Assembly (NCBI RefSeq): GCF_004359215.1
Contig: NC_090610.1
Coordinates: 13,300,509-13,339,104 of the forward strand
Direction: 5' to 3'
Length of the DNA: 38,596 nucleotides
From: Bremia lactucae
Taxonomy: Eukaryota; Oomycota; Peronosporomycetes; Peronosporales; Peronosporaceae
Shown in pieces: positions 6,640-27,125 of the stretch (its first letter is position 1; each line of letters starts with the position of its first letter). The notes under the pieces were generated by a model. That model had not been told where the DNA came from. It was given only the letters and a program-made list of their open reading frames with translations, and did no database searches. The translations under genes and the position numbers were made by a program.

Positions 6640-7798
6640 AACAGTACCGCCCATGATTTCTTTCACACGCAAGCGGGCGAAATTAATTCACTGCGACCGC
6701 TGTTTCATCGCATCGGAATGCTCATGAATGCGGCGCGAGAATTCCGTCTCGAATTGGTCGGGCGTTTCATTGGAACGCAACACGACCGGGATCGAAAAAA
6801 TACGCCCAAGCGATTTTCCCTGAGCCCTCATGACTTAAAGATGCCATAATTATTATGTGCGTCTAGAAGTGCGCGCTCTAGGAGCGACGCTCTTGGCCCG
6901 TTTAAACGAGGCTATTTAGAAGGAGGGGGCATCGGGGATATGCCACCTGTCACATAGCCACGTTCAAAACGACTGGCTTGTAACACCGACTGAGCACCAT
7001 CACGTGTCGTCGGCGAAGCCAAACGTTCAGGATCCTATATCAGAACCATTATGAATAAGGGTTAAGCGGAAGAAGTTGTGGTTCTACCCAATGGAGTAGC
7101 AGCTGCGCCTCTATGGGCAGCGCTCTAATTAACCATCGCTGCGCTATCCAGCGCAGACGACGAGACAGCATTCGTAAATGTTGCTGTCTCCATGTTGTGA
7201 GCCATGAGAGAAGTTTGGATGGGCAATAATGCGTCACATAGCCACGTTCAAAACGACTGGCCTGTAACACCGACTGAGCACCATCACGTGTCATCGGCGA
7301 AGCCAAACGTTCAGGCTCCTGTATCAGAACCATTATGAATAAGGGTTAAGCAGAAGTCGTTGTGGTTCTACCCAACGGAGTAGCAGCTGCGCCTCTATGG
7401 GCAGTGCTCTCATTAACCATCGCTGCGCTATCCAGCGCAGATGACGAGACAGCATTCGTAAATGTTGCTGTCTCCATGTTGTGAGCCATGAGAGAAGTTT
7501 GGATGGGCAATAATGCGCCATCATCCTTCCTCATGAGCTCGTTGTCCGCATCACTACCATGAGGTGACGGCAACGGTGTCGACTCATTGTAGTCGACAAT
7601 GAGCGACGGATCAACATCATCACTGTTTGAGTGGGATCGATCCTTAAGCCCCGTTAACGCGACAGCAGCAGTAGCTGTCGGCGTTTCGACTAAGGCATTG
7701 GACGCTGCCGGCGTGTTAACGCGGCGCGTGTGCTTAGCGCGAGGTCGAGTGAGTGTCTTTGCAGACGGCCCACCAACGTGGCCCCGTTTCGGTGGCAT
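6640..7798 (-). pseudogene. Antisense ORF of element C1 (MPPKRG-type protein)
   Basis: A minus-strand frame starts with ATG at 7798, 132 bp inside the LTR, and runs 150 residues to 7346: MPPKRGHVGGPSAKTLTRPR, a Thr/Ala-rich stretch, DPSLIVDYNESTPLPSPHGS, DADNELMRKDDGALLPI, then TFTNAVSSSALDSAA. A 284-bp duplication and shifts break it. The sequence resumes with QEPERLASPMTRDGAQ, SVLQASRFERGYVT and, further on, a basic Trp-containing segment shared with C2. It lies opposite to pol, after the chromodomain. No known family is recognised. It is not a sense gag of a neighbouring element, because the adjacent LTR is shared with the plus-strand pol and C2 repeats the whole arrangement. Confidence 0.6.
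6950..7517. repeat. 284-bp tandem duplication
   Basis: 6950-7233 and 7234-7517 are near-identical direct copies, both starting TCACATAGCCACGTTC and ending GGGCAATAATGCG. C2 has only one copy. Because 284 is not a multiple of 3, the duplication shifts the antisense frame. A few single-base differences separate the copies. Confidence 0.95.
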
Positions 7799-12156: not shown

Positions 12157-12205
12157 TGCTGCATGAGATTGGACACACATTTGGATTCGGACACGCTATG
12201 AGTGG
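12157..12205 (+). pseudogene. Left fragment of metallopeptidase pseudogene
   Basis: Forty-nine bases match the active-site region of the intact gene near 21515-21564 with two differences. One of these changes Leu to Phe in the HEIGHTFGLGH motif. The last five bases, AGTGG, are the target duplication of the inserted element. The rest of the upstream gene copy is absent. Confidence 0.9.
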
Positions 12206-12692
12206 TGTAGCGGGGCTACCTCGCTTCTAAAGTCAGAGGAAGACTATCAGATTCAGAGAGTCACTTAGTTCTATTGAACTAATGGGTTTAACAAATCAGA
12301 GAGTCGTACAAGCCATTAAAGCTTAAGAAAATCTAGTTCAAGGGATTCAGGGGTTCGTAGAACCAAGTGGCAACTACTGCCCAAAGAGGTTATACCTAAG
12401 AAAGGCTTCTATATCTTATAGATCAATGCACAAGCCTTAGAAAGGCAGTTCACGCTTTAAGATCAAAAGGGGAACTGCACTTTATTTAATTATTTAGATC
12501 TAAAAAGCTTGCCCTAGCTAATTTAAAATAGATTTCGGCCGCCAGATTTATATCTGGCGGCGACCACATTTTGTACCCATAATAAATGGGATTTAAGGAA
12601 CTAACTATTTTAAAATTAAATAAAAGGGTATTTTACCCATAAGGTAAGTGTACCACAACAACGGTTCACCAACTGATGTGTGCCCCATTACA
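12206..12692 (-). repeat. 3' LTR of family B element
   Basis: On the plus strand it runs TGTAGCGGGGCTACCTCGCT to GTGTGCCCCATTACA. It matches 19129-19571 and 32251-32747. Its left edge is the target duplication and its right edge the polypurine tract. Confidence 0.9.
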
Positions 12693-12704
12693 CCCTCCCC
12701 CGTC
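12693..12704 (-). other. Polypurine tract of family B element
   Basis: The minus strand reads GACGGGGGAGGG immediately before the LTR (TGTAATGGGG). This sets the element's orientation independently of the coding content. Confidence 0.85.
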
Positions 12705-12806
12705 AGACTGTTGACACCGAGGGACAACATTCGCTTCATTTCCTCCTTGAGGTTGGAACCTAAACAGCTAACCGTTTGGTTGTGTTTTCCATTCCTTTGT
12801 CTAATG

Positions 12807-13977
12807 ACATTCAAGCGTGAGTCACAGACTCTGAGCACCTTCCTCGACGACGAGGGAATGGTGGACTTTGAAAGTCACTCGCAATCAGAGGAGGAAAAAG
12901 AGCGGCGTTCGCTCACGCCTTCTCCTCCGGATGAACGTCGGCGAGCCCCAAATCCGTTCCCAGAACGTGGTGCCGCTGATGCCTTAACTGCATTGAGCAG
13001 GACACGAGACCCCGAGTCCAACATCATTACGAATCCGCTCGATGAAGAGCAAGAGCAGATAATCCTCATAGAAGAAAGAGCTCGTCGTCGAGCTGCCAAG
13101 ATAGCGAAAGCAAAAGCCCATAGTGAATAAAGAATCACTCCACTTAGTGCGAACGAGCGTCTCAAAGAGAAAGTGGGTCATAGCTTGGGCATCTGGATCT
13201 CCGGTGACCCGGCGATGACGCCGGAGGAGATCGCTGCTCGCGATGCTCTTCATGAGCAATACCTTACGCCGAAGGTTATGACGCGAAGCCAGTATCTGAC
13301 GCGCTTACGTGATCAAGTCCGTGGGGCTTCGCTGACCTCTATGAGGGATATTCCGATCGTTTTGTTTCCAAACCAAACAAGGACTGAAAATGAAGTCTCA
13401 TTTGAGAAATGTTCACCGGGCCCGCAAACTCCGTAATATCTGGAATATCAGAGAGTCTGCGGATAGAGCTGATATTCGTTTGGAACGGAAGCTTCGCTTC
13501 GACTTTGCTAAGCTTAAGGCCAAAGGCCTGTTACGTTCGGCATTTATGCCACAAAACGAAGAAAGGCCTAGCCAAAATTTCAGTGCTTTGGTTGACCGTA
13601 AAACCAAGGATCGAAGACGCACTGAGGCTTTATATCCATCTAATCCCACGTTTAGTGGTGGGAAGCGTCGTTTGACGCGAGTTGACCCTGAGCTTGGCGC
13701 TCAAAAACGTCAACGGCGTACGGGCAATCTTGCCGAAGAGGTACCTCAAATTCCCAAGAGTTTTCAGAAGACGGGTACCCTAGCCAATTCACCAGATACT
13801 GTGATTGACCCTTACGACGACGTCGCTTTAAAAGTTTCTCCACATAAAACTGAAGGTTTCCCAGCGCATTAAGCAGCGCGGGAGGGGGCCGAAATTTCGG
13901 CGGAAGCATTTGATGCTCTACGGCACGAGGTGCAACTTCTTCGTGAGGTCCTTGCTCGGGTTCAGAGCTCTTTTTGA
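12807..13977 (+). pseudogene. Antisense ORF of family B element (about 390 codons, 3 lesions)
   Basis: On the strand opposite to gag-pol an ATG at 12807, 114 bp inside the 3' LTR, opens MTFKRESQTLSTFLDDEGM, an acidic Ser-rich stretch (SHSQSEEEKERRSLTPSPPD), LDEEQEQIILIEERARRRAA and KIAKAKAHSE. After an in-frame TAA (13128-13130) the same frame continues ISGDPAMTPEEIAARDALHE and VMTRSQYLTRLRDQVRG to 13436. A shift near 13390-13436 leads to a basic region (LERKLRFDFAKLKAKGLLRS, GGKRRLTRVDPELGAQKRQR). Past a TAA at 13870 in the same frame, a zipper-like helix follows (EAFDALRHEVQLLREVLARV), ending at TGA 13975-13977. Its first 840 bp lie beyond the pol stop, where no sense gene would force the frame open. 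The lesion density is like that of pol here. No homologue is recognised. Confidence 0.65.
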
Positions 13978-14212
13978 GGCGGTTCGGGACTTTTTTCAAC
14001 GCTGGAACGTCAGCAGCCTCGTTTAGAGGGCCAGTTGAATATCCTGGTGAGGATGCAACAATCTGCGGCACGAACGCCTGTCTCGGCGCAAGCGCCTTCA
14101 AGTCCACGTGGGATGGGTCCCGATGTGGCTTAAGCAAGTCAACGTAAACAACTGGGTGTGTACGCAGCTTGCTGGGAAGGTTTAGCGTATAAGCTAGACC
14201 CATCTTGGCCAA
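13652..14212 (-). pseudogene. Integrase C-terminus and chromodomain, family B
   Basis: A 186-residue frame reads LNLPSKLRTHPVVYVDLLKP, a Pro/Ala-rich linker, then GNLQFYVEKLLKRRRRKGQ, YLVNWLGYPSSENSWEFEV and a C-terminal tail to the stop at 13652. The chromodomain aromatic residues (Y, W, W) are in place. This is the pol end of the element. The plus strand opposite the linker encodes the helical end of the antisense frame. Confidence 0.9.
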
Positions 14213-15356
14213 AATGGTCCAATAAAGCGCGGGTGCAATTTGATCTTGAAGACCGCGGAAACCAAGTTGGTATGTAGATTTTTAGCGTTTAGCAAAAATC
14301 GGTCTCTGACCATATAAAAATTAGTACAGCTTCTGCCTTTGGCAACCGCTTGTTCTTTTTGTTTGTCTTTGCTATCAGCCAGCGTATCCCTTATATGTCT
14401 TAAGACACTAAATCGCGTCGCGAGAAACTCGCTTACTTGTTTTCGAACGGTAACAGGGCTGATTTCAGCAAGCTTCCCGGCTAATTCACCCCCACCAAGC
14501 CCTGAGCCACGCATTAGAATCGTTAACAGATAGGGTGGGTGAGTGGGATCGTTGACATAGAACGGACTATAGCCTGTAGAGGCATGTACAGCGTTATTTA
14601 ATGCAAATTCTACTACTAGGAGCATAGATCTCCAGCGCTTTGGCTTCTGTGCACAGACACTGCGTAAATCGTCTTCAATGACGCGATTGACACGTTCAGT
14701 TTGATCATCGGTCTGAGAATGGTCCGCGGTAGACATGTCCAATCGTAGTGGCAAGCACTCGGAAAGTTGATTTCCAGAATTTACCCGTGAAACGGGGGTC
14801 CCGATCAGAGACAATCGCCACTGGAAAACCATGTTGTCGAAACACGTGATCGATAAACAGCTTAGCTGTACCCTCTCCATCAATGGAATCCGGCACGGCC
14901 GCTAAGTGAGCCATATTGCTCAAACGGTCAACAAAGGCCACTATACCGGAGTGACCGGCTGAATATTTCGGTAGACCAAAAACCAAATCCATACTAATGG
15001 ACTTCCAGCAACCTATGGGGTCGGGAAGCCAGTGGCGCAGCAGCATGCGCCGAGGGTTTAACCCGTTGGCAAGTTCACATGCGAACATATGTGCTGACCC
15101 ATTCATAAAGTTTGGGCCACCAATAACTCTGGCTTATAGAGCCGTAGATCTTTTCTCTACCGAGATTACCACCAAAGACAGTATCGTGTGCCTCATAGAG
15201 GATTTGGAGCTTCAAATCCTCATCATGAGGAACAACGACACGCGGAGGGTCCGCGATGTCTGTGCAATAAAGCAACAGGTTGTTATCGATAAAAAATCTA
15301 TGTAACCTTGCACGCAAACGTGCCGGCAATTTAATACCTGAATCCGAGTTCTTCAA
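14194..15356 (-). pseudogene. Integrase zinc-binding and catalytic core, family B
   Basis: Three overlapping minus-strand frames cover the integrase. An N-terminal segment from 15356 carries DLKLQILYEAHDTVFGGNLG and SQSYWWPKLYEWVSTYVRM. The core carries SMDLVFGLPKYSAGHS, FVDRLSNMAHLAAVPDS and VSDRDPRFTGKFWKSTFRVL. The E-containing block is QTERVNRVIEDDLRSV, followed by FALNNAVHASTGYSPFYVND and HPRFIGPF. The D, D and E positions are visible. Two or three shifts separate the frames, so no functional protein is possible. Confidence 0.9.
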
Positions 15357-17107: not shown

Positions 17108-17347
17108 CTGGCGAACCGCCAAAAGTGTCACTATTGATACTCAGTATGGTGCCACCTGGGCCGACCACACTCGGTGAACTTAGACGTGCCACTCCACGTA
17201 TCTCAGGGATATTGCACTCTTGAGGTTCTGGCGAACCGCCAATAGTGTCACTATTGACACTCAGTATGGTGCCACCTCGGCCGACCACACTCGGTGGACT
17301 TAGACGTGCCACTCCACGTATCTCAGGGATATTGCACCCATGATGAT
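17108..17347. repeat. Two tandem copies of a 120-bp unit
   Basis: 17108-17227 and 17228-17347 repeat with an exact period of 120 bp and few differences. Since 120 is a multiple of 3, the minus strand encodes a 40-residue tandem repeat (CNIPEIRGVARLS, PSVVG, GGTILS, NSDT, GGSPE) between protease and reverse transcriptase. Confidence 0.9.
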
Positions 17348-19128: not shown

Positions 19129-19571
19129 TGTAGCGGAGCTACCTCGCCCCTAAAGTCAGAGGAAGACTTTCAGACTCAGAGAGTCACTTAGTTCTATTAA
19201 ACTAATGGGTTTAACAACTCAGGGATTCATACAAACTGTTAAATCTTAAGGAATCCTAGTTCAAGGGTCGTAGAACCAAGTAGCAAAAACTACCTTAGAA
19301 AGGCTTCTATATCTTATGGATCAATACGCAAGCCTTAGAAAGGCAGTTCACGCTTTTAGATCAAAAGGGGAACTGCACTTTATTAAATTATTTAAATCTA
19401 AAAACCTTACCCTAGCTAATTTAATATAGATTTCGGCCGCTCGATTCATATCTGGCGGCGACCACATTTGTTACCCATAACTAGCTATTTAAAAAAATGG
19501 ATAAAAGGGTATTTTGCCCATAAAGTAAAGGCCACAACAACGGTTCTCCAACCGATGTGTGCTCCATTACA
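19129..19571 (-). repeat. 5' LTR of family B element
   Basis: Plus strand TGTAGCGGAGCTACCTCGCC to GTGTGCTCCATTACA, 443 bp. It pairs with 12206-12692 and is followed by the AGTGG target duplication. Confidence 0.9.
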
Positions 19572-19776
19572 AGTGGTATCATGGCGCGCGGTTTTAATGA
19601 TATGAATTGACTATTATGCATCTTTGAGGCCGATCCGAGCTCATCGCAACTGGGATATACGCAGTCTAGTGACAAAGGTTGGCTTGATTTAATTCACTCA
19701 ATCCTTCACGAAATTTATGGTCGAAATGGAGCGCATACAAAACGGCAAAGAAATTGATCTTAGATAGCTCATTCCA
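19572..19776 (+). pseudogene. Right fragment of metallopeptidase pseudogene
   Basis: It starts with the AGTGG duplication and matches the intact gene from about 21560 to 21723, then skips about 125 bp and resumes at ACAAAACGGCAAAGAAATTG (gene 21849) for some 40 bp. A CGA-to-TGA change gives a premature stop (GATATGAATTGA). It is the continuation of 12157-12205 and shows that a second copy of the gene once lay just upstream of the intact one. Confidence 0.92.
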
Positions 19777-20342: not shown

Positions 20343-20637
20343 GCGAGGTAGTGAATCTAACAATACAAACAACTTTAAGCATTGCGTATTCAACTGCTCG
20401 ACCGCAATATGTGGAGCGTTTTTCAAACTTTATTTTTTGACAATGTAATATAATTATTTTTCCGTTATGCTCAGTAGAAACAATGAAACGTCTTTTTTCA
20501 ATTCGCTTTTATCGACTGCACAAATGTCAATTGACATTGTCCTTCATTTGTGTGGTGGCAAATCACAGTCACAAATACTTGCATTTTAATCGGGACATTA
20601 TTGTTTAATCTCTTTCCAATCGACATATCTGCAACAA

Positions 20638-23586
20638 ATGTCTCCCCAAGCGTCAATTGTGATCGACAATTTGCAAGAAGGCGAGGTGCTCGCCTACCCG
20701 TTAGTGCTGCTCGAGGGTCGTATCCTTAATTTAAATTCTCCTGATACACTTTTTCTAGTCGCTCATTTGGACGATGCCTGCACTTCCCTCTGGCCAATTT
20801 CCCCGTCCGGCTGTTTTAAGGCATTTGTGCTTCTCCCATCACCCGGTCAATTTACCATCACTCTGCAACTCGATGGCGTCGCAACTCGCATCTTTCCCAT
20901 TGAGTATCAACGTCCAATCACTCGCTACATGTTAAAATTTCACTATCAAATTTGCTCTGACGCCGACGTCCGCAATGGATTCGATGCCCCTCGGGGTGTC
21001 GCTAATTCCAATTCTGTCGCCATTGCCAAGATTCAGTTTAATGCTTTGCTACTTCAAATGGCAATGGCCGAGCTCATGCACTCCGCAGGTCTACCACGGC
21101 GGACATTTTCAATGCAATTTGCGCCCGACGGAATGCCAGACGTGACGCTACTGCGCTGCAGCTTCACTAATGCCCACGCGCACGCAATCGACGATCAAGA
21201 GCTCCTGAAGTTGGTCCAAAAAGATATTGAAGCTACGGGAATTGACAGACATCCAGAGCTAGAATCGAAGTACGCAGTGATACTCGGTTGCTCGAGATAT
21301 AATACGGAAACGAGAATAGCAGAGGGACACACTGCACTTGGAGGCGATAAAGTAGCAATGTTGGGGTCGTGTGGATTACACACATGGCCCTCGCATATTG
21401 GTGAGCTGTCCTTGTGCTGTTTGAATAACACGCGCATTGATGAGCGAGATTTGCTGGATGATAGTTGCTTTCGAGGCACGCACTGGGCAACGTTTTCCAC
21501 TGGACTTGGTGCCATGCTGCATGAGATTGGACACACATTTGGACTCGGACACGCTACGAGTGGTATCATGGCGCGTGGTTTTAATGATATGAATCGACTA
21601 TTATGCATCCTTGAGGCCGATCCGAGCTCGTCGCAACTAGGATTTACGCAGTCTAGTGACAAAGGTTGGCTTGATTTAAATCACTCAATCCTACGCGAAA
21701 TTAATGGTCGAAATGGAGCGCATTGGAATGCTGCATCAGCTCATCTGCTACGACACAGTCCATGGATTTCAGGACATGCCAGGTCATCACTCGTAGGCCC
21801 TACAGTGGTATGGAGCAACTCTGTCCTTGGACCTGTTGGACTCGGGACACAAAACGGCAAAGAAATTGATCTTAAAGAGCTCAATCCGTCATCTACCGTT
21901 GAAGATGAAATTGGTGCTATCGTGCTCGATGCTGACACGTATTTAAATCACTTGGAGATTTGGACACGCGCTGAAGTGAAAGAAAGAGAACAGACGGAAC
22001 CACTTCGTGCTGCCGGCACCAAACACTGGTTTCTTCTTGTCAGTGGCGAATATATTACTCGCGTAGATATCCGTGCCATGGCATGGATCGATGGTATTCA
22101 GCTGCATACAAACTTGCGTTCATCTCGTTGGTTTGGTGGTATAGGTGGCATACTCCACACGTTTAAAGTTGCTGAAGGGTGGCATGTAAGTGCATTTTTT
22201 GGATCAAGAGGAGATTCGTATGTTGGGAAATTGGGTTTACGCTGCCTCCAAACCCCTTTTATATCCTCGCTGTCTCATTCGCTAGGGCGCCATGGAAGAA
22301 GCAGCCCGATTTCTAAATCTCCTCTTGCAGGAAAGGCATTAGAAGATGGTCCTAAGACGCCATTTTTAACAACCATCCCCGAAATTAAGGCTGTTGTCGT
22401 CCAGTGCGGCAGCTATGTCGAGTCTGTCAAGCTGATATCTTTAGAGGAAGCAGCATCAAATTTGAGCAATCCGACGTTCTACGGCTCAAATGAGCACGTA
22501 TTTCAACTCTGTCCTGGCGAAAAATTGATAAAGTTAGAAGTATCCAGTGGCCACTGGGTTGATGGTATTAGATTTACAACAACGCTACGTGTTGGACCTT
22601 GGTTTGGAGAAGGGAGAGGGTCCGTCGACACAGTTATGGAAAGTCCTGCTGGTCATCGGATTTGCGGGATTCATGGAATACGTGGAGCCCAATACGTTGG
22701 CGCCATAGGAGCACTTTATTGTGCTGATGGTGGAACAACATGTCCCCAGATGAAATCTCAGGAAAGAGTAGGGCCCAAAGAGTCAGAAGCACGAGCTTTT
22801 CGACTTATGAAGACCGTGCCGTTCTCGAATCGAATTGCAAATCATCTAATAACAGAACCGCTCTGTGGAATTTTGGTGGCAGTTCGTTGTGGCGTGGTAA
22901 TGTCTGTGGTGTCCTATGGCAGTTTGAACAAATATGATGAAGCGGTGAATGACCTCCACTCCACTCTTCTCTCGGCAAATGATCCATATCAAGTGCATTG
23001 CGTTTCGCTGGAGCCTGGGGAAAAGCTCGTCCAAATCGACGCGACCTTCCAGCAGGGTAGTGTCTGCGAGCCATACACAGTCATTGATGGCATTTGTTTC
23101 CACACTACGAAGCGGTGTTCATCGTGGTTTGGAGCATTTCGTAAATCAAATTTGCACTTTTTTATGGCAGCGAAGGGCACCAGCATCATTCATGTGCAGG
23201 GATGTTACACTGGACGCAACCTGACTGACCTTGCGGGATTCTTTGGAGTCACTGCCAACAGTTCGCAGCTATTATACCCGGATGCTCGTGTTTTAATTGA
23301 TGAGGGGGCCGATGACATTCGAGTGGAAGCGGCTCTACCAGAGTTCGGCATTGAAACGGTAGTGTTGGTTGAAATTAATAATGGCGACCATCTAGACAAG
23401 GATGCCTGGACGTGGAATCAGTCCAAAATGCCGTACCCCCAAGTGTGGCGAATTCCGCTTAAGATGCTGGAAGACTGCATTGAAAGTGCGGATAGCAAGC
23501 GCACGCTTTTTAATGACTACCTCATTTGTGCCATTAACTCGGGTGGCGCATACACCAAGACTTCTGCTCCAGCATTGCGCCCGTAA
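20638..23586 (+). CDS. Zinc metallopeptidase with jacalin-like repeats (YIL108W-type)
   Basis: An intact, intronless 982-residue protein. The N-terminal 440 residues look like the putative peptidase family that includes yeast YIL108W. The active site is HEIGHTFGLGH at about residues 295-305: two metal-binding His and the catalytic Glu, with a third His in metzincin spacing. SGIMARGF follows. Three jacalin-like, probably sugar-binding, segments come after, near residues 440-545 (WIDGIQLHTN, RWFGGIGG), 590-700 (HWVDGIRFTTTLRVGPWFGE) and 745-870 (DGICFHTTKRCSSWFG). No signal peptide or membrane segment is visible, so it is probably intracellular. The substrate is unknown. It is convergent with Nup107, with 95 bp between the stops. 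An interrupted duplicate lies upstream (12157-19776). Start chosen: first ATG of the long frame. Confidence 0.85.
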   Translation: MSPQASIVIDNLQEGEVLAYPLVLLEGRILNLNSPDTLFLVAHLDDACTSLWPISPSGCFKAFVLLPSPGQFTITLQLDGVATRIFPIEYQRPITRYMLKFHYQICSDADVRNGFDAPRGVANSNSVAIAKIQFNALLLQMAMAELMHSAGLPRRTFSMQFAPDGMPDVTLLRCSFTNAHAHAIDDQELLKLVQKDIEATGIDRHPELESKYAVILGCSRYNTETRIAEGHTALGGDKVAMLGSCGLHTWPSHIGELSLCCLNNTRIDERDLLDDSCFRGTHWATFSTGLGAMLHEIGHTFGLGHATSGIMARGFNDMNRLLCILEADPSSSQLGFTQSSDKGWLDLNHSILREINGRNGAHWNAASAHLLRHSPWISGHARSSLVGPTVVWSNSVLGPVGLGTQNGKEIDLKELNPSSTVEDEIGAIVLDADTYLNHLEIWTRAEVKEREQTEPLRAAGTKHWFLLVSGEYITRVDIRAMAWIDGIQLHTNLRSSRWFGGIGGILHTFKVAEGWHVSAFFGSRGDSYVGKLGLRCLQTPFISSLSHSLGRHGRSSPISKSPLAGKALEDGPKTPFLTTIPEIKAVVVQCGSYVESVKLISLEEAASNLSNPTFYGSNEHVFQLCPGEKLIKLEVSSGHWVDGIRFTTTLRVGPWFGEGRGSVDTVMESPAGHRICGIHGIRGAQYVGAIGALYCADGGTTCPQMKSQERVGPKESEARAFRLMKTVPFSNRIANHLITEPLCGILVAVRCGVVMSVVSYGSLNKYDEAVNDLHSTLLSANDPYQVHCVSLEPGEKLVQIDATFQQGSVCEPYTVIDGICFHTTKRCSSWFGAFRKSNLHFFMAAKGTSIIHVQGCYTGRNLTDLAGFFGVTANSSQLLYPDARVLIDEGADDIRVEAALPEFGIETVVLVEINNGDHLDKDAWTWNQSKMPYPQVWRIPLKMLEDCIESADSKRTLFNDYLICAINSGGAYTKTSAPALRP

Positions 23587-23681: not shown

Positions 23682-26600
23682 TTATGTGATAACAGTCTCA
23701 GGAGCAAGTTGCAAACTTTCGACGAAGATCAGCGATATCGCGCTTTCACGAATTCCGTGCAACAGGTCTCGACACTGATCCTGATCCAGCGCAAGGTAGA
23801 CACCATAGTGCTCGTCAGCCACCACATCAGCGACTTGAATTGACTTTTGCAAAAGTGGCGCTGCGAGTGCCGTCTTGGCATCTGTAGGAAAGTAAGTAAG
23901 GCGCATGATAGTTTTCGCTGACTCGAGCTGAATAAAGTGGAGATTAAACACTAGCATCGGCAAGCAGCGCTTGCGAAGCGCAAGATCCTCGGTGGCATTG
24001 TTCGGGCAGCCAATCAGCCATCCATTTTCAAAGTGCAGAACCTCGAGTATTGCAGCAGTTGATCGCGATACGTGAACCATAATGTCAGCCAGATATTCCT
24101 TCTCCTCGCTGTAGAATGACATTGCGCGTGTATTTATGCAGTTTCTCCATAAATCATATTGCGCACATGCCTGGATGTATACACGCCAGCAAAGGAATTC
24201 GCGCATGGCTCGCTCAATCTCGTCATTAGTACGCAACAATTGACCGTCGCGATTCATGTCTAAAACGCCGATCGAGTCCTCCGGTAAGCATTCTTCGATA
24301 AGTTCCTTTACGGCAGCTACTTTTCCCTCATGGATAAATTGTCGTGCAAGCATATTGACACGAATTAACGCTTCAGCTCGATGCTGCGAATAAAAACATA
24401 GGAACTCGATCGTCTTAATTCGCCTTCTATCAAGGTCCGTCGTGGGCACGTTCGAGGGCAGCGGCTGAATCTTTTGCTCTTGCTGATTTATTGCCATTTC
24501 CTTATAATCGTTGCTTAATCGCTCAACCACAGACTGCAGCACGATTGACAGCACGTCTATGCCAGCGTATTCCAGAATTCTCTTGCTGCAAAGTTCGCGC
24601 TCAAATGTATCGTCGACCGTCGACAGCATTTGCACGTAAATTTCTGTGGCACCAAATGTTGGAAGTCGGTTAGCGTAGACTGGCACGAATTGCAACTGTC
24701 GACGTTTGACCAGGTGTCGAATATACAACTTAAGAATCATGTGGCCCGACTGTTCGTCAAAATGCTCACCAGTAAAGCTGGCAAACAGTATAAAATGAGC
24801 GGCAAAGCGCAAAAACAGCGACGACGTTACGTCAGATTGCCCCGTCGAGTTCAGCTGCAAATCCCAATTGTACGAATCATCGTTGGGAGTAAATAGCACG
24901 GTGTCAAAAATACTCGACACGATGTACTGAAAATTGGCCGTGACCAACTTTGATTGAATCTGACGGTGTGGTTCATGAGCCTGCAATCGAACAAGTTCGC
25001 TCGAACTTCCTCTCAGCTCATCAAAAATTGTCTCAAGATTCGCTTGGTAGCGCTTAAGGTACTTCATCTTATCGAGCAAGCTCAAGTAGTGACGCCGATA
25101 GTGCACATTATTGCCAACAATAAGCTGTGTTGTCTGAGTCTTGACTATGAGCAATTTGTACAAAATTTCGTCAAGCTGGTGCTCCATACTACCATGCAAA
25201 TAAGCCCAGCAATGGTCTTCCCAGCTTTCGCATAATGAGCTCTTTATTATCACCTGAATGTTACCACTCAACGCCGCATATATCATCTCCTCATAGCTTT
25301 TCGCAAGCAGGCTGGAGCTTTTCGAGAGCTTTCCTTTAGCAGTTTCCTCGGACAAGCGCCAACACATCGATTTCCAAAGCGCACGAAACGGATTGCCCCA
25401 ACGTTCCAGTGCACACTCAGTGCTTTCATTGCTCTCACTAGCGCCAACGACATGGCCTCCGGATAAGCTCGCTGCTCTCCACGATTGGCCCACCCGGATA
25501 CACAAATCAATTGCATCGTCCATTCGTCCAGCGCGAAGGTAAAGCCAAAGAGCTTTCATTAACTCCGCTTCATCCTCCAAGTCATCTGTCAACACGTTCG
25601 CATCTCCGTCACGCATGATTGCGTCAGGATCCATCGAAACTTTTCGTTTCAAATCCTTCTGTTTCTTGATCATCCTTAGTGTGCGAGATCCTTTTAAGCC
25701 TGACTTGTCGTTTAACTCAATAGTGCTCTCCAGCGCCATGTTTTCCAGCCACGTCTTCACCGCTTTTTGAATTTTAAACGTTTCGTTACGAGTTTCCAGT
25801 AGACGTCCAGCGTCATCCTCCAGCGTCTCAAAGTGCAGCTCATCTATCTCACCTTCTACCAGCATCAAGCTGTCCTCCCCATCTGCCATGTCTTTAGTCG
25901 TATGGCACACTTGCCGCAATTCAAACAATAGTCTCCACGTATTGCGTTCGTCTCTCAGCTCTTTGATCTCACTCTGCAGTCGCTTCGTCGGAGCTTCGCG
26001 TAGCTTGCTGCTACTCGCCAACGATTCCTCTAGCTTTTCCAATTGTTGCTGCAATACTGCAATGTACCCACTGAGCAACTTTTCGCAAAACAAATCGGAT
26101 ATTTCTACGTTCTCTAAATTTTCATAAAAATCCGCTGCCATTTCGGCAAATAAAGCTTCTTCCGGGCGCACATGCCGCGAGTATAAGGCTCCCCTTGCGG
26201 ACGGAACAGCGTTTAGTGATAACGACTGACTCAGCGTCGCCAATTGATTCATCGTCGAGTCAGTAGAAGTGGCTAGTTGCTCCATCGACAAAGATGCTCC
26301 ATAGACCGACGAGATGGATGAGATAGACAATTTCGGATCCGCTCGATGCATCTTTTTGCCGTCAAAAAGAGTTCCACTTTTATTAAGAAAACTGTGCTGG
26401 ACATCAGCAGCCTTGACAACGTGGATAGCACCTTCAAAGTCCATGCCACAGTCTACGACAAGCCAAGAATCATCTACCACTTGTCCACCAAACATGACGC
26501 GCGCGTCCCTAGCAGAAAAGCCCAACGCTTGTACGCTGTCGCGCTTCTCACACAGCGCTTTCTTAAGGTCTTCGATGGTAGTAAAACGAGGCTCTATATC

Positions 26601-26975
26601 GACAAACTCCGTTGACTGGTCTGGAAACACGCCCTTGACATGGAGTCGACCCTGACGCACCGATGTAGTCACAACAGGCTCCAGCAGACGCGTTTCCTCG
26701 TCATTATCATTACTTAGGTTCTCATTATTAATTTTAAAGTTCTGTTCGAGTCCAAATTTGTCTGGAGATCCTGAGATGGACGAGAAGTGGAAGCTGTCGG
26801 CGCCCTTATCAATCGTGCTACCCACACCAAATCCCGAGCTGCGGGACTGCTCCAGCTCCGGTGCTTCACCTATAGATGCTAAAAGACGAAGTGATTGGTC
26901 TGCGCCATCAATTAGACGCTGCACTGCTGCATTGCGCCGCGCGCCGTCGCCGCTGGAAGAGGAACGTCCAGCCAT
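23682..26975 (-). CDS. NUP107: Nuclear pore protein Nup107/Nup84, with N-terminal ubiquitin-like segment
   Basis: An intact single-exon protein of 1097 residues. Residues 1-100 are Ser-rich and disordered. Residues about 110-190 (LHVKGVFPDQSTEFVDIEPR, TTIEDLKKALCEKRD, ARVMFGGQVVDDSWLV, GAIHVV) look like a ubiquitin-like fold. From about 250 the protein is helical. It carries ALWLYLRAGRMDDAIDLC and QSWRAASLSGGHVVG near 470-500 and REFLCWRVYIQACAQYDLW near 925, which fit the Nup107/Nup84 family. This is a scaffold of the outer ring (Y complex) of the nuclear pore that pairs with Nup133. Length fits the family (700-1000) plus the extra N-terminus. A convergent neighbour lies on the left; a divergent intergenic stretch is on the right. 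Confidence 0.82.
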   Translation of the reverse strand: MAGRSSSSGDGARRNAAVQRLIDGADQSLRLLASIGEAPELEQSRSSGFGVGSTIDKGADSFHFSSISGSPDKFGLEQNFKINNENLSNDNDEETRLLEPVVTTSVRQGRLHVKGVFPDQSTEFVDIEPRFTTIEDLKKALCEKRDSVQALGFSARDARVMFGGQVVDDSWLVVDCGMDFEGAIHVVKAADVQHSFLNKSGTLFDGKKMHRADPKLSISSISSVYGASLSMEQLATSTDSTMNQLATLSQSLSLNAVPSARGALYSRHVRPEEALFAEMAADFYENLENVEISDLFCEKLLSGYIAVLQQQLEKLEESLASSSKLREAPTKRLQSEIKELRDERNTWRLLFELRQVCHTTKDMADGEDSLMLVEGEIDELHFETLEDDAGRLLETRNETFKIQKAVKTWLENMALESTIELNDKSGLKGSRTLRMIKKQKDLKRKVSMDPDAIMRDGDANVLTDDLEDEAELMKALWLYLRAGRMDDAIDLCIRVGQSWRAASLSGGHVVGASESNESTECALERWGNPFRALWKSMCWRLSEETAKGKLSKSSSLLAKSYEEMIYAALSGNIQVIIKSSLCESWEDHCWAYLHGSMEHQLDEILYKLLIVKTQTTQLIVGNNVHYRRHYLSLLDKMKYLKRYQANLETIFDELRGSSSELVRLQAHEPHRQIQSKLVTANFQYIVSSIFDTVLFTPNDDSYNWDLQLNSTGQSDVTSSLFLRFAAHFILFASFTGEHFDEQSGHMILKLYIRHLVKRRQLQFVPVYANRLPTFGATEIYVQMLSTVDDTFERELCSKRILEYAGIDVLSIVLQSVVERLSNDYKEMAINQQEQKIQPLPSNVPTTDLDRRRIKTIEFLCFYSQHRAEALIRVNMLARQFIHEGKVAAVKELIEECLPEDSIGVLDMNRDGQLLRTNDEIERAMREFLCWRVYIQACAQYDLWRNCINTRAMSFYSEEKEYLADIMVHVSRSTAAILEVLHFENGWLIGCPNNATEDLALRKRCLPMLVFNLHFIQLESAKTIMRLTYFPTDAKTALAAPLLQKSIQVADVVADEHYGVYLALDQDQCRDLLHGIRESAISLIFVESLQLAPETVIT

Positions 26976-27125
26976 CGAATTCCGGGAAATTGAGGATACT
27001 ATCCGGACGAGATTGCTTTATTAGCAATATTAATATTGTGACTAATCCTTTCAAGTAGCTTATTCTGTAAACGTAGATATTGCTTTAATACTTTGGAATA
27101 TGGGTAGCGGATGCCGCGAGAAACG

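Follow-up and report, generated by a model that had tools for sequence, protein, structure and literature searches.

Does a retrotransposon of a downy mildew carry a protein gene on the strand opposite to its gag-pol? The question is raised by a Ty3/gypsy element that reads on the minus strand of a 38,596-nucleotide stretch of the Bremia lactucae genome (hereafter the window; contig NC_090610.1, positions 13,300,509 to 13,339,104, with features numbered from its first letter). A preliminary description had drawn attention to a long plus-strand frame running against gag-pol. This frame is indeed present, and sister copies of the element show it to be a gene that is under purifying selection outside its overlap with pol. 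We hold it to be a real protein gene with near certainty.

In the window, the gene extends on the plus strand from an ATG at 12804-12806 to a stop codon at 14131-14133, a length of about 440 codons, with its ends placed from the sequence, the ends of relatives and the sister copies. It had earlier been described as starting inside the 3′ long terminal repeat (LTR) and covering about 390 codons. The ATG instead lies within the internal region, 111 bp from the inner edge of the 3′ LTR, and the shorter extent was incomplete, as the gene continues to 14133. The pol frame ends at 13652. The gene therefore comprises a portion beyond pol (12804-13651), which holds the acidic start and central domain and is supported by stop counts and the selection test, and a 482-nt overlap with the end of pol that involves both strands (13652-14133). 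The window copy is broken by stops at 13128-13130, 13870-13872 and 13975-13977, and its frame changes twice, at about 13.41 kb and again near 13.98 kb. Within 12807-13977, the first two stops and the first frame change agree with the two stops and one shift reported before. The TGA at 13975-13977 is a premature stop with a frame disturbance alongside, and the relatives' ending maps to 14131-14133.

Taken alone, the openness of the antisense frame in the window copy is not beyond chance. When its longest open runs were compared with those of 2000 dinucleotide shuffles, a 107-codon run in 12806-13651 was matched in 450 of them, and a 175-codon run in 12806-14135 in 64. The openness noted in the preliminary description is thus within chance for this copy, and it is the sister copies that decide. 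Removing duplicates from 83 loci left 65; after mapping to the register of a reference sister copy, L019, whose antisense frame is open without correction, 53 of these satisfied the filters for coverage and identity. This frame remains open through all 272 codons beyond pol, a run reached in none of 2000 shuffles. Across the 53 copies, the 818 nt beyond pol contain on average 1.26 stops per copy in the antisense frame, compared with 12.9 and 24.0 in the other two plus-strand frames and 6.2, 16.3 and 7.2 in the three sense registers (counts ignore indels and skip gapped codons). No sense register is stop-free over these 818 nt in any of the 53 copies. Ten copies lack an antisense-frame stop beyond pol, which does not equate to an intact gene; the antisense ATG is kept in 48 of the 53, and the pol-frame stop occupies an identical column in 50.

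Selection was assessed without a consensus, by comparing variants private to one copy with variants found in at least 15% of copies. We infer that the former mostly arose after insertion, and that the latter mostly come from replicating lineages. Private variants beyond pol are distributed over codon positions 1, 2 and 3 as 197, 218 and 193, and shared variants as 1, 4 and 16 (p = 9e-5). Read as antisense codons, synonymous and nonsynonymous changes stand at 15:6 among shared variants and 126:482 among private ones (p = 1.5e-6), which puts the ratio at about 0.1 times the neutral value. The outcome that the preliminary description had named as refuting the gene, an absence of selection beyond the chromodomain overlap, was thus not observed. 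The result holds at every sharing threshold tried between 5% and 25% (p < 1e-4). Among the 34 copies found by DNA similarity alone, the 15% threshold gives 9:5 against 118:357 (p = 0.0025), and the 10% threshold gives 13:14 for shared variants (p = 0.012).

Relatives of the antisense protein occur in Peronospora, Hyaloperonospora and Phytophthora. A protein search with the open frame of L019 as query found at least 23 proteins at E <= 0.001 among the 7998 scored candidates with most shared words, the lowest E value being 3.2e-150, and another protein search found 21 relatives. They include proteins of Peronospora effusa (P0027, 42% identity over 99% of the query), Peronospora matthiolae (P0031, 39% over 95%), Hyaloperonospora arabidopsidis (P0030, 44% over 81%), Phytophthora ramorum (P0038, 32% over 98%) and Phytophthora citrophthora (P0042, 34% over 68%). 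An alignment of 16 sequences gives a common order of conserved stretches, not all of which are present in each protein: VDYxSDT, APNPFPERG, IITNPLDE, VRLERKLRFDYAKLKAKGQL, QKRxRRxGN, SPDTG and a C-terminal coil. Read by eye, the upstream extension of P0036 and P0042 is TPLHPPP(P). Since this could come from the C-rich complement of a polypurine tract, these two proteins may adjoin a 3′ LTR. In the annotations of Phytophthora and downy mildews, P0027, P0030, P0031, P0038 and P0042 are uncharacterized, hypothetical or unnamed.

What kind of protein does the gene encode? Structure prediction suggests an acidic disordered start, a helical domain, a basic disordered linker and a coiled coil. In the model of P0023 (26 sequences; mean predicted local distance difference test score, pLDDT, 63.9), residues 1-81 are disordered, 86-250 form a mainly helical domain, 267-370 are a largely disordered linker holding a basic cluster, and 375-431 form a single long helix with a heptad pattern. 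In the model of P0036 the domain spans residues 123-287, where the score mostly exceeds 90 and dips around 150-170. Mapped onto the window by reading, the predicted helical domain (IITNPLDE to LERKLRFDFAKLKAKG; residues 83-254 of P0023) covers 13023-13540, the basic cluster KRRLTRVDPELGAQKRQRR within the predicted linker lies at 13663-13719, and the predicted coiled coil at 13903-14064, all on the plus strand. Pfam searches gave no convincing family match for the antisense protein, and comparison of the predicted models with solved structures gave no clear fold match for the central domain. Neither TRP28 (PF04195) nor a basic-zipper (bZIP) domain appeared in the Pfam matches of five proteins at E <= 10, or among the 25 of 33 families listed for 26 proteins. 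A bZIP sequence pattern was absent from all seven proteins tested.

The predicted basic linker lies opposite the pol chromodomain, and the predicted coil opposite the pol linker between the chromodomain and SH3. From these coordinates and models, the ordered and flexible parts would interlock, with ordered parts alternating between the strands. The C-terminal parts of relatives are also codon-compatible with a position opposite a pol chromodomain. This was examined for 17 antisense proteins against 18 pol proteins in the register of the window, scoring the best 40-residue window; shuffled antisense proteins (3 shuffles against 4 pols each, or 12 scans) reached at most 0.675. A score of 1.00 was obtained for P0027 with the pols of Peronospora effusa (P0060) and P. 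farinosa (P0051), for the pairs P0023/P0044 and P0028/P0046, and for P0029, P0031 and P0032 with the Hyaloperonospora brassicae pol P0048. The peaks for P0038 and P0042 of Phytophthora, and for P0033, were 0.925, 0.95 and 0.975 respectively, reached with pols of Phytophthora fragariaefolia or Phytophthora idaei. The telling part of these scores is the rise to 1.00 with one particular pol.

We think it rather probable that this is a chromodomain element with a selected antisense gene of about 440 codons, whose product is likely an oligomeric nuclear regulator of the element. Transcription would begin at an antisense promoter in or beside the 3′ LTR, the basic cluster would direct the protein into the nucleus, the predicted coil would mediate its oligomerisation, and the protein would then act on transcription or integration of the element itself. 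For the antisense precedents in plants, a role in regulation from the nucleus or through DNA binding is discussed (PMC7264820, PMC11963269). Regulation of the element, taken as a claim in itself, is a tentative proposal that falls somewhat short of an even chance. Evenly balanced, in our judgement, is the broader idea that Peronosporaceae chromodomain elements use both strands of the pol end throughout the family, with folded parts opposite floppy ones. The targeting chromodomain would then have evolved, through the family's age, locked to an accessory protein that is nuclear, forms a coiled coil and has no known fold, and this protein would control the element's expression or targeting.

Other explanations must be set beside this one. 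If the open frame were a product of chance, base composition or sense coding, the 450 matching shuffles of the window copy would be expected, and a by-product of sense coding might be seen in the one sense register that, alone among the other five frames, carries a synonymous excess (13:8, p 0.0007). Such an excess is expected where third positions coincide. The excess is strongest in the antisense frame among all six, also with the DNA-found copies alone; the stop counts separate that frame from the other five, no sense register is stop-free in any copy, and the relatives reach E values down to 3.2e-150. Relatives, stop counts and selection test together refute such an origin, to which we assign a negligible probability. 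It is also improbable, if less so, that the antisense RNA matters and not the protein, with convergent transcription producing double-stranded RNA that keeps the copy number down. In Phytophthora infestans, Gypsy elements are matched by small RNAs of both sense and antisense orientation (PMC3522703), and the double-stranded RNA idea has been raised for plant antisense frames (PMC7264820). However, the codon-position pattern and protein conservation call for translation, to which an RNA effect could be additional.

Among readings that accept a protein, one is a factor similar to HBZ of human T-cell leukaemia virus type 1 (HTLV-1). HBZ is a bZIP protein encoded by an antisense gene that runs inward from the 3′ LTR side. 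The side of the element and the direction are as in HBZ, and a basic cluster and predicted coil are both there. However, in P0023 these lie about 60 residues apart (309 against 375), and with neither a bZIP match among the Pfam families listed nor the bZIP pattern in the seven proteins tested, such a factor is very improbable. Accordingly, the acidic start, basic middle and zipper-like end of the preliminary description survive as an acidic start, a basic cluster and a predicted coil; the suggested bZIP arrangement does not. A more serious competitor, though still unlikely, is a structural or integration partner, which might direct insertion by binding, for instance, chromatin or the tail of the integrase. 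The gene faces the pol chromodomain, and a predicted coiled coil with a basic linker would suit a scaffold equally well. Nothing specific speaks against this role. An overlap does not imply interaction, and the plant precedents are discussed as regulators (PMC7264820, PMC11963269).

Several observations weigh against a selected antisense gene encoding a nuclear regulator. Neither sequence nor fold searches found a nuclear, DNA-binding or regulatory domain, and an oomycete initiator motif scored at background near the antisense start. The frame is fairly open above the ATG (0.94 stops per copy in 177 nt), so the real start could be farther upstream. Where the gene overlaps pol, the comparison of shared and private variants gives no significant selection for either of the two frames. 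Rows with identical scores form two sets, whose members are spread over contigs and carry in-frame stops: 4 rows represented by L084 and 12 by L085, in which the single member read per set has 1 and 3 stops. Copies without an intact antisense frame have therefore multiplied, by transposition or in assembly; the sets reflect either recent amplification or the placement of repeats by the assembly, and they weigh against a strict need for the gene in every copy. The other species are represented by proteins only. Further, the compatibility test is not clean: antisense and pol pairs span 0.65-1.00, indicating that homology alone gives high scores. The Phytophthora fragariae pol P0132 fits P0038 (0.70) and P0042 (0.725) poorly, and P0031, labelled Peronospora matthiolae, scores best with a Hyaloperonospora pol (1.00, against 0.825-0.85 with two Peronospora pols).

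Antisense accessory genes are discussed in the literature mainly for plant elements, where their function is not known (PMC7264820, PMC11963269). The antisense open reading frames (aORFs) of Retand, Grande and RIRE2 lie near the 3′ LTR and are kept in most copies and across species (PMC7264820, PMC11963269). The Bremia gene resembles them: it encodes a protein, runs against gag-pol next to the 3′ LTR and is found across copies of the family and in several species, as in the arrangement termed aORF-3R; it also enters pol. Retand belongs to a non-chromovirus lineage, with 2,933-6,566 bp between pol and LTR and TRP28 in 97% of clusters (PMC11963269), whereas the Bremia element has a chromodomain, less than 1 kb beyond pol, a 482-nt pol overlap and no TRP28 match. 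The precedents named in the preliminary description were incomplete, as an extra antisense gene, brtn, is already on record in Boty elements of Botrytis cinerea (PMC7264820; Zhao et al. 2011, by its title in the references of PMC8365987). Boty is likewise a retrotransposon of a filamentous plant pathogen, not of a plant, with an additional antisense gene; its host is a fungus. HTLV antisense genes are also mentioned (PMC7264820, PMC11963269); the inward run from the 3′ LTR side is shared with HBZ, and the bZIP arrangement is not found in the Bremia protein.

Among oomycete elements, Chronos is a Ty3/gypsy element with a chromodomain at the end of pol and a dual RNase H, the second being archaeal-like (PMC5348765). 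The window element shares the chromodomain at that position and differs in showing one RNase H. The main text of PMC5348765 nowhere uses the terms antisense, opposite strand, additional ORF or third ORF. No antisense gene of an oomycete element or chromovirus was recognised in the literature by titles and the starts of abstracts, a scope outside which most subscription papers lie; the earlier remark that none was known for oomycetes is borne out to this extent. Within the same scope, the kind of gene is known from plant elements and Boty brtn, and the protein family, the oomycete host and the chromodomain overlap were not found in print. Its presence in an oomycete chromodomain element suggests that this kind of gene arose more than once. 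The gene offers for testing a protein family that has no known relatives, would account for some of the genes annotated as 'hypothetical' in the genomes of Phytophthora and downy mildews, and may inflate gene counts there. In Bremia, Gypsy elements make up 53.3 of 91 Mb (PMC6570648), and because they bulk so large, a self-encoded regulator would bear on pathogen genome expansion.

The element itself is confirmed as bordered by LTRs and AGTGG target site duplications, as first described. On the minus strand, the 3′ LTR lies at 12206-12692, the polypurine tract, C-rich when read on the plus strand, at 12693-12706 (by reading), and the 5′ LTR at 19129-19571. The duplications flank them at 12201-12205 and 19572-19576. 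Aligned with each other, the LTRs are identical in only 399 of 490 columns with 46 gaps, and this copy is therefore old. A piecewise domain search of the pol frame against Pfam families with curated cut-offs detected, on the minus strand, a protease piece (PF08284, 17432-17959), a reverse transcriptase piece (PF00078, 16106-16477), one RNase H region in two pieces (PF17917 and PF17919, 15437-15936), the integrase H2C2 piece directly after it (PF17921, 15075-15410), an integrase core piece (PF00665, 14705-15133; E 0.00036, under the curated cut-off), a weak SH3_Tf2-1 match (14123-14215; E 0.0027, likewise under the cut-off) and, at the end of pol, a chromodomain (PF00385, 13697-13843; E 2.2e-11). 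This is the domain order of a Ty3/gypsy element with a chromodomain, chromovirus-like as the preliminary description held, and relatives occur in other oomycetes. Between the protease and reverse transcriptase pieces, 17108-17347 contains a 120-bp tandem duplication (93% alike). The Albugo pol proteins P0058 and P0075 share 64% identity with the element's pol tail, with query coverage of 89% and 74% respectively; this identity is high for so distant a host.

Elsewhere in the window, a 998-residue open frame at 20590-23586 combines a Metallopep domain with three Jacalin-like lectin stretches. A 169-nt piece within this frame (21555-21723) has a 93% match in 19568-19736, which lies where the 5′ LTR has its outer edge. 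A 1111-residue frame on the minus strand (23682-27017) matches Nup84/Nup107 with an E value of 1.7e-140 and is an ordinary nuclear pore gene. Finally, a 284-nt unit is repeated in tandem at 6949-7516 with 96% identity.
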